In this document: piece by piece, positions 22,568 to 23,379 of the stretch
Layout: each line of letters starts with the position of its first letter
Position numbering within the stretch: position 1 is the stretch's first letter
Assembly (NCBI RefSeq): GCF_039655875.1
Contig: NZ_JBBYXK010000001.1
Coordinates: 744,001 to 808,000, forward strand
Length of the DNA stretch: 64,000 bases
Origin: Emcibacter sp. SYSU 3D8
GTDB lineage: Bacteria; Pseudomonadota; Alphaproteobacteria; SMXS01
Direction: 5' to 3'
Position numbers and translations under genes: made by a program
Notes under the pieces: generated by a model
The model's database searches: none
The model's input: only the letters and a program-made list of their open reading frames with translations
What the model was told of the DNA's origin: nothing

Positions 22568-22614
22568 CGGGATGAGATAGAGATTCAGAGAAAAGTATGT
22601 AATCTACTAATTTA

Positions 22615-22645
22615 ATTGTCATCCCCGCCTTGAGCGGGGACCCAT
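22615..22645 (+). repeat. REP-like palindromic repeat, left copy
   Basis: A 31-base unit: a constant left arm (ATTGTCATCCCCGCC), a TTGA loop, and a constant right arm (GCGGGGACCCAT), forming a CCCCGC/GCGGGG hairpin. The identical arms occur in inverted orientation at 22976-23015 on the other side of the GIY-YIG gene. The sequence just to the left (about 22580-22614) is markedly AT-rich compared with the rest of the window. Confidence 0.8.
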
Positions 22646-22663
22646 ATCGATATCAGCCACGCC

Positions 22664-22957
22664 ATGTCCGAAAAACAATACTACGTCTATATTGTCACCA
22701 ACAAAACGCGCGGCACGCTTTACACCGGCGTGACATCAGACCTCACCAGACGCATCGCCCAGCACAAGAGCAAAGTGCTTCCCGGTTTCACCGCGACCCA
22801 CGGCCTCGACAAGCTGGTCTACTACGAAGTGTTCGGCGACGTCACCGAGGCCATCCGCCGCGAGAAGCGGCTGAAGCGCTGGAATCGTGCCTGGAAGATC
22901 GAGGTCATCGAAGCCGGCAATCCCTACTGGAAGGACCTGTTCCTCGAGTGGTTTTAG
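22664..22957 (+). CDS. Small GIY-YIG nuclease family protein
   Basis: A 97-residue stand-alone GIY-YIG domain, the type often labelled UPF0213 or endonuclease-like. It has YYVYIVTNKTRGTLYTGVTSD, split as the GIY-like YVYIV and the YIG-like YTGVT, then LTRRIAQHKSK with the catalytic Arg, a helix with EAIRREKRLKRW carrying the catalytic Glu, and the terminal GNPYWKDL. The gene is alone and bracketed by inverted copies of a palindromic repeat 18 bases away on each side, which suggests that gene and repeats form one unit. The biological role of these proteins is not settled. Confidence 0.9.
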   Translation: MSEKQYYVYIVTNKTRGTLYTGVTSDLTRRIAQHKSKVLPGFTATHGLDKLVYYEVFGDVTEAIRREKRLKRWNRAWKIEVIEAGNPYWKDLFLEWF

Positions 22958-22975
22958 GGCGTGGCCGTCATCGCC

Positions 22976-23015
22976 ATGGGTCCCCGCTCGCGCTTCGCTT
23001 GGCGGGGATGACAAT
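22976..23015 (-). repeat. REP-like palindromic repeat, right copy (inverted)
   Basis: The reverse complement has the same two arms as the copy at 22615-22645 (15 and 12 identical bases) but a longer 13-base loop that is itself partly self-complementary. It begins 18 bases after the GIY-YIG stop. A run of seven T follows at 23017-23023, so on the plus strand the hairpin may also terminate the nuclease transcript. Confidence 0.8.
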
Positions 23016-23054
23016 GTTTTTTTGTTTCGCCTTCTCGCGAGCAAAATAGGGGTT

Positions 23055-23355
23055 CTATGTGCTTTGCGGACTACTGGTTCTGAGCGAATGCACTGGGTCG
23101 GCTGCGCCTGCATAGTGGTCCCGCATCTCGCGAACCCTTTGGGCAAGTGCCTCTGGATCAACGTCAATGAGCGAGCAGTTCACCTTGTGGGTGCGCGGGT
23201 ATAGACGCCGCGTAAGTCTTCCAATGCCAAGGCATACCGGGCTCTATCGTGTTCAGAATGAGCATCGAAAGCGTGAGGAACGCGATGCACATCAAGGCAG
23301 GAGGAATCACCTTCCATCGGTTGAAGCGAATGACGAGCTCTTCGGGCTTGGACAT
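23055..23355 (-). pseudogene. Decayed small membrane protein gene (frameshift or internal deletion)
   Basis: The reading frame from the ATG at 23355 encodes 63 residues: a charged start (MSKPEELVIRFNRWK), a hydrophobic helix (VIPPALMCIAFLTLSMLIL) and then a nondescript tail ending at 23164. In a neighbouring frame, without its own start, the sequence continues as RLYPRTHKVNCSLIDV followed by DPEALAQRVREMRDHYAGAA and stops at 23055. The second piece reads like real protein and the two together look like a gene for an STM3941-type small membrane protein that has lost its middle or its frame. It may alternatively be a genuine 63-residue gene. It lies next to the repeat-bracketed GIY-YIG unit. 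Confidence 0.4.
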
Positions 23356-23379
23356 TGTACTTATGCCCGCCGCGCTACG

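Follow-up and report, generated by a model that had tools for sequence, protein, structure and literature searches.

A GIY-YIG nuclease gene between inverted CGTC-type REPs: a candidate partner for a family of bacterial repeats

The bracketed gene and the repeats of its genome

The window, a 64,000-nucleotide stretch of the Emcibacter sp. SYSU 3D8 genome, contains near one end of gcvPB a small gene for a predicted GIY-YIG nuclease, placed between two inverted palindromic repeats as the first-pass annotation had described. The unit and its flanks, in window coordinates, consist of the following parts.

22613..23014, + strand: whole REP-nuclease-REP unit; the BLAST block common to genome G003 (inverted there) is exactly 22613-23014, and the G006 block ends at 23014
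22618..22644, + strand: 5' CGTC-type REP, with a TGTC tag, a 5-nt loop and a CCA tail
22664..22957, + strand: GIY-YIG nuclease gene, 97 aa; PF01541 match at E=1.5e-17, conserved active-site residues, AF2 pLDDT 92.8
22874..22894, + strand: codons of residues 71-77, the proposed REP-reading segment; covariation peak in two data sets
22977..23012, - strand: 3' CGTC-type REP, inverted relative to the 5' REP, with a 14-nt loop
22568..22612, no strand: AT-rich left flank, missing from the empty site
23015..23379, no strand: right flank, from the right REP to gcvPB, missing from the empty site; a longer related version is found in G007

The left palindrome reads GTCATCCCCGCCTTGAGCGGGGACCCA, with the structure GTCATCCCCGCC-TTG-AGCGGGGACCCA, and the right one, read on its own strand, is GTCATCCCCGCCAAGCGAAGCGCGAGCGGGGACCCA, made of the same arms in opposite orientation; both were computed to fold as hairpins. 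The arms they have in common measure 15 nt (ATTGTCATCCCCGCC) and 14 nt (GAGCGGGGACCCAT), so that of the lengths first reported, 15 and 12, the former stood and the latter had to be raised. The loops do differ as had been claimed, the gaps between repeat and gene are 19 bases before the start codon and 19 after the stop codon instead of the 18 first given, and the flank called AT-rich is so, the 96 bp that separate the nuclease start from the upstream gene having 46% GC against 65% for the window. In G000, G006 and G003 alike, the short loop is found in the 5' REP and the long AAGCGAAGCGCG loop in the 3' REP, the inverted unit included.

Both repeats have the make-up of CGTC-type REPs: a CGTC (or TGTC/CCTC) tag immediately before the stem, an 8-9 bp stem starting with AT, a short loop (the 14 nt of the right window repeat being unusually long) and a CCA tail. 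Di Nocera et al. (2013; PMC3733652) described this class, including dRS3 of Neisseria and RPE-4/RPE-6 of Rickettsia, as sharing the (C/T)GTC tag, the AT stem start, the CCA tail and the inverted dimers, and as lacking a dedicated transposase, whereas here a dedicated predicted nuclease gene accompanies the repeats. Rfam gave no match. Pattern searches of the 4.07-Mb genome, with the reversed pattern as control, found 13 occurrences of the exact arms and 41 copies of a broader strict CGTC-REP pattern, with no control match in either case; the thousands of unrelated copies that would have made the bracket look accidental are thus not there. The copies in the window are tagged TGTC and the others in the genome CGTC. 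With the long-loop copy included, 36 of the 42 REPs form 18 inverted pairs, all head-out with the tags facing outward, and inverted dimers are therefore the main arrangement of this multi-copy repeat. Seventeen pairs have spacers of 31-97 bp; the spacer of the eighteenth is 332 bp long and holds the nuclease gene, so that the unit resembles a gene-bearing REP pair. For a random 300-bp interval, the chance that REPs lie within 300 bp both to its left and to its right is 1.4e-4 per gene, and yet each of the three close GIY-YIG paralogs of the genome has REPs of its own subtype to either side (GTCATCCCCGC, GTCATCCCGCC and GTCATYCCCGCGCAC). The fourth, remote GIY-YIG gene of the genome has no REP bracket.

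The protein belongs to the GIY-YIG superfamily by its Tyr, Tyr, Arg, His, Glu and Asn residues, by PF01541 and by the fold obtained with AF2 and Foldseek; no NCBIfam family scored above its cut-off. Across 58 relatives Y9, Y20, H34, E67 and N86 do not vary, and R30 hardly does. The AF2 model, built with these relatives, has a helix at residues 60-72 that bears Glu67, a break at 73-74 and a further helix from residue 75, and in the model residues 71-77 are the elbow between the two helices, beside the active site. The nearest solved structure by sequence is UPF0213 1zg2 (E=3.4e-9 with the family profile); by fold, UPF0213 and Slx1, a nuclease of branched DNA, come closest among solved structures. 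Slx1 works with a partner, Slx4, and is structure- rather than sequence-specific. One difference between the window protein and the UPF0213 and Slx1/URI-type proteins is the bracket: the remote GIY-YIG genes found in this order have no flanking REPs.

Distribution of the bracketed gene

Elsewhere in the order the bracket is present at every close relative with readable sequence to its left and right, the subtypes including GTCATTCCCGCGAAAGCGGGAATCCAG, GTCACCCCGGACTTGTTCCGGGGTC and GTCATTGCGAGGAGGCGAAGCC, and none of the seven remote GIY-YIG genes of the order has a matched REP pair. A general gathering of REPs at any GIY-YIG gene was rejected on the ground that remote genes are unflanked. A scan of 84,980 species genomes, which used the protein alone and was therefore blind to repeats, returned 80 loci spread over many phyla, and at most of them inverted repeats that match each other flank the gene. 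The family ranges over about ten phyla, among them Pseudomonadota, Patescibacteria, Bacteroidota/Ignavibacteria, Chloroflexota, Armatimonadota, Desulfobacterota, Campylobacterota and Elusimicrobiota, and members also occur on a Planktothrix plasmid and, with dRS3-type repeats, in Neisseria. Had the flanking arms been absent from homologous genes the bracket would have lost its meaning, and they are present in many phyla. Related palindromes beside the same gene family start with GTCATTGCGA, GTCATTCTGA or GTCACCC, and REP-divergent relatives of the window protein include a GTCATTGCGA-type and a GTCATCCCGG-type one.

For enrichment we compared 235 non-redundant family genes (<80% identity) with control positions of the same geometry on the same contigs. 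A GTCA-tagged 12-mer upstream with an inverted copy downstream (at most one mismatch) was found at 126 genes (54%) and at 2 of 1379 controls; a matched pair or an inverted match score of at least 16 at 161 genes (69%) and at 2 controls (0.1%); and a tagged REP on one or both sides at 215 genes (91%) and at 9.3% of controls. The GTCA tag was adopted because a three-base GTC tag is too loose for the pair test (33 of 3257 controls and 2 of the 7 remote genes), and heads starting GTCAAG were dropped as a wrong-phase reading of the loop in CTTGAC hairpins. About 30% of family loci have no matched pair, for which decay, one-sided loss or misassembly are our guesses.

The family has no match among phage sequences and few on plasmids, so that movement may be rare. 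Rhizobium plasmids with the gene at one locus (L136) have no matched REP nearby and offer no informative empty site. In Neisseria gonorrhoeae (NZ_CP119140.1, 1882278-1882550; L169) a family gene lies between dRS3-type repeats at a place where no annotation is listed. The family members on Planktothrix agardhii plasmid p1 (L138) and in Ignavibacteria (L081) lie among GTCATTCTGAG...AAGAATCTC repeats, another widespread type.

Within the class, 92 of 289 genomes contain the family nuclease, and at least eight REPs of the strict pattern are present in 34 of these 92 as against 7 of the 197 others (OR 16, p=3e-13, a value that counts genomes as independent, though relatives are not). Thirteen of the 14 genomes with only a remote GIY-YIG gene have no REPs of the strict pattern. 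That pattern covers one REP class only, and many pattern-negative genomes with the nuclease accordingly carry other subtypes. Six genomes (G097, G153, G206, G231, G238 and G275) are rich in REPs with no family nuclease detected, several of them from genera or families in which the nuclease occurs; gene loss or assembly gaps may be the cause.

Protein covariation with the repeats and polymorphism of the unit

Mutual information between variable residues and eight REP positions placed residues 72, 73, 74 and 77 in all of the top 13 of 592 tests. A sliding-window Mantel test, controlled for distance in the remaining protein, gave its best values in the first set of loci at windows 71-77 and 72-78 (r 0.56, partial 0.55), with at most 0.17 outside windows starting at residues 65-77; repeated on loci fetched afterwards, it was again best at the same two windows (r 0.43, partial 0.39; elsewhere at most 0.29). 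Glycine at position 73 goes with 'GCGA' REPs in 14 of 14 cases against 0 of 129, with no exception among the 143, and the match spans Alphaproteobacteria, Gammaproteobacteria, Campylobacterota and others. Heads of the form GTCATTGCGA occur only beside proteins with Gly73, nearly always as K-x-GSR-xxK, and GTCATNCC heads go with K-x-W-x-R-x-W-K proteins.

Confinement of the signal to residues 71-77 argues against kinship alone, since common ancestry should distribute it across every variable position. So short a protein does not yield a well-supported tree, and an independent-pairs test has consequently almost no usable changes: well-supported branches hold just one or two independent changes per trait, which leaves a strict phylogeny-corrected test without power. 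Recognition of the REP by the nuclease is strongly supported by these comparisons of sequence. Residue-base rules made by hand held for GS with GCGA (4 of 4) and for E72 with CCG (2 of 2). A further rule, K72 with CCC, was dropped after 6 of 14 out of sample.

The first-pass annotation had proposed a search for empty sites in sister genomes, and such sites exist within the genus. In G005 the neighbouring genes are joined and the unit is absent, and G004 and G002 likewise have no unit; G006 has it in the same place, and in G003 it lies at the same end of gcvPB in opposite orientation. Homology with the sister genomes stops at the REP borders, and G007 retains a remnant at this locus. The element thus has the defined ends (a REP-to-REP block) and the presence and absence at orthologous sites that are asked of a transposon; the filled and empty flanks are too diverged to define a junction, and no target-site duplication is defined.

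A second case is found on Sphingobium plasmids, where seven records have a unit bordered by GTCACCCCGGG, placed between fnrL and the gene for a response regulator, and four lack it; two of these four have a single fused palindrome at the exact site. The fused palindrome resembles what a deletion between the stem halves would leave. On the TomTYG64 plasmid it reads GTCACCCCGGG-TCAAG-CCCGGGGTGAC and is tagged at both ends, with a near copy in TomTYG74 (L170, L171). A gene-free REPIN at C7:70203-70343 of the Emcibacter genome (L010; L314, L315) is common to G000, G005 and G004, with identical REP arms and diverged spacer and flanks, and G002 is without it. Comparison of these genomes shows that REP-bounded units are gained, lost or inverted, whichever enzyme does this, and that their arms are evidently under constraint or conversion.

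A proposed mechanism and its alternatives

The reading we prefer, with a probability of about 0.7, is that the unit is an autonomous CGTC-type REP element whose REP-specific, probably structure-selective nuclease spreads or maintains the REPs in the manner of the RAYT/REP system, much as had been suggested for the unit of roughly 400 bases before homologous genes were found flanked and sister sites empty, filled or inverted. The GIY-YIG enzyme is then likely to be the missing partner of the CGTC-type REPs, which were thought to have no enzyme. The two inverted REPs on either side of the gene would be of the subtype that the nuclease recognises, and the nuclease would use residues 71-77, adjacent to the catalytic Glu67, to read the variable bases of the REP stem. 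It might then nick the hairpin, as a single strand or a cruciform and in the way of Slx1, at or close to the GTC tag, which is invariant and lies at the outer foot of the hairpin. Cuts at both outward tags could free or expose the REP-bounded unit, which host replication and repair would copy to new sites or use to convert related REPs to the same sequence, and the short gene-free inverted pairs 31-97 bp apart would be non-autonomous, REPIN-like copies. We infer the cleavage, the position of the cut, the single-strand or cruciform substrate, the route of re-insertion and mobilisation itself. A folded substrate is proposed in view of the Slx1-like fold and of the many intact REPs in the genome, to which an enzyme that cut duplexes freely would be dangerous. 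The joining of strands is the weakest step, as GIY-YIG enzymes hydrolyse DNA and we know of no strand joining by them, so that insertion would need host repair or a further partner.

The main rival is a role in homing or gene conversion with no real transposition, in which the nuclease would cut diverged or empty REP sites and repair would copy in the REP, and sometimes the gene, giving uniform REPs with few insertions. GIY-YIG enzymes include known homing nucleases, the I-TevI type sharing with the window protein the catalytic fold and residues and the tie between a small nuclease and a spreading DNA element; the REPIN with identical arms and diverged surroundings in three species also suits this explanation, as do cassettes that keep one locus between species (G000 and G006). 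However, homing genes interrupt their target, whereas here the gene has no intron and no long DNA-binding domain and intact candidate targets flank it while many others remain scattered elsewhere, and allelic conversion by itself would not account for the varied insertion sites and the opposite orientation seen at one locus. We consider it unlikely, at something like one chance in six.

Much less probable is a domesticated repair enzyme that removes REP hairpins or cruciforms during replication and whose flanking REPs regulate its own gene. The Slx1-like fold, repeats that form hairpins and the constraint on REP arms fit such a role, but alone it leaves unexplained the empty and filled sites, the co-existence in one genome of several paralogs, each paired with a REP subtype of its own, and the patchy presence of the gene within the class. 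Slighter still is the chance that the gene is a passenger in REP pairs moved in trans by a RAYT or IS transposase, as the gene-free pairs and the one Y1_Tnp (RAYT-like) gene of the genome might suggest: no CGTC REP lies near that gene, no transposase flanked by CGTC REPs was reported in the 2013 survey (PMC3733652), and a passenger would show neither REP covariation confined to residues 71-77 nor co-occurrence with REPs across genomes. A RAYT acting in trans was rejected by us on the position of the Y1 gene. Mere coincidence, with REPs, which are often intergenic (PMC3733652), gathering beside small intergenic genes, has a negligible chance given 161 of 235 genes against 2 of 1379 controls, 0 of 7 remote genes, and three of three close genes flanked at 1.4e-4 per gene.

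The autonomous REP element that we favour resembles the REP/REPIN-RAYT system in its small enzyme gene between inverted REPs, its dispersed head-out dimers, the tag outside the stem, the joint diversification of enzyme and REP variants and a mostly chromosomal location at few copies per genome. It differs in that RAYT is a Y1 HUH transposase (TnpA_REP), whereas the bracketed gene here is a PF01541 hydrolase from a different superfamily that lacks the HUH tyrosine transposase domain and has no known strand joining, and in that the tag is (C/T)GTC instead of GTAG; the sole PF01797 match of the genome lies elsewhere. Like MITEs and their parent IS, short non-autonomous copies share their ends with a longer enzyme-coding copy, but there is no DDE or other transposase, the ends are palindromic and no target duplication was detected.

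CGTC REPs and GIY-YIG proteins were already known; what is probably new is the pairing of these REPs with a dedicated, unrelated enzyme in a RAYT/REP-like working. A 2025 survey of REPs mentions neither RAYT, transposase nor nuclease, and we found no link between GIY-YIG and REPs in open-access papers. With a dedicated partner, the origin, spread and conservation of CGTC REPs can be put to the test with short oligonucleotides and a single small, soluble protein. Should the enzyme prove to cut and spread REPs, a GIY-YIG hydrolase would have arrived by convergence at the role of the RAYT transposase, and segment 71-77 would be a simple natural DNA-reading module in a nuclease of about 95 aa, which could interest protein engineers. 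More tentatively, and with rather less than even odds, we suggest that a hydrolytic GIY-YIG nuclease may drive a class of mobile DNA found across the bacteria, in which REPs of the CGTC type, with Neisseria dRS3 and the GTCATTGCGAG and GTCATTCTGA palindromes among them, would be non-autonomous copies of REP-nuclease-REP units, their specificity set by a swappable segment 71-77 of an enzyme that moves or copies DNA with no transposase. As to the Emcibacter genome itself, at C1:604033-604955 (L017, L312) its only Y1_Tnp gene lies about 400 bp from the remote, unflanked GIY-YIG gene.
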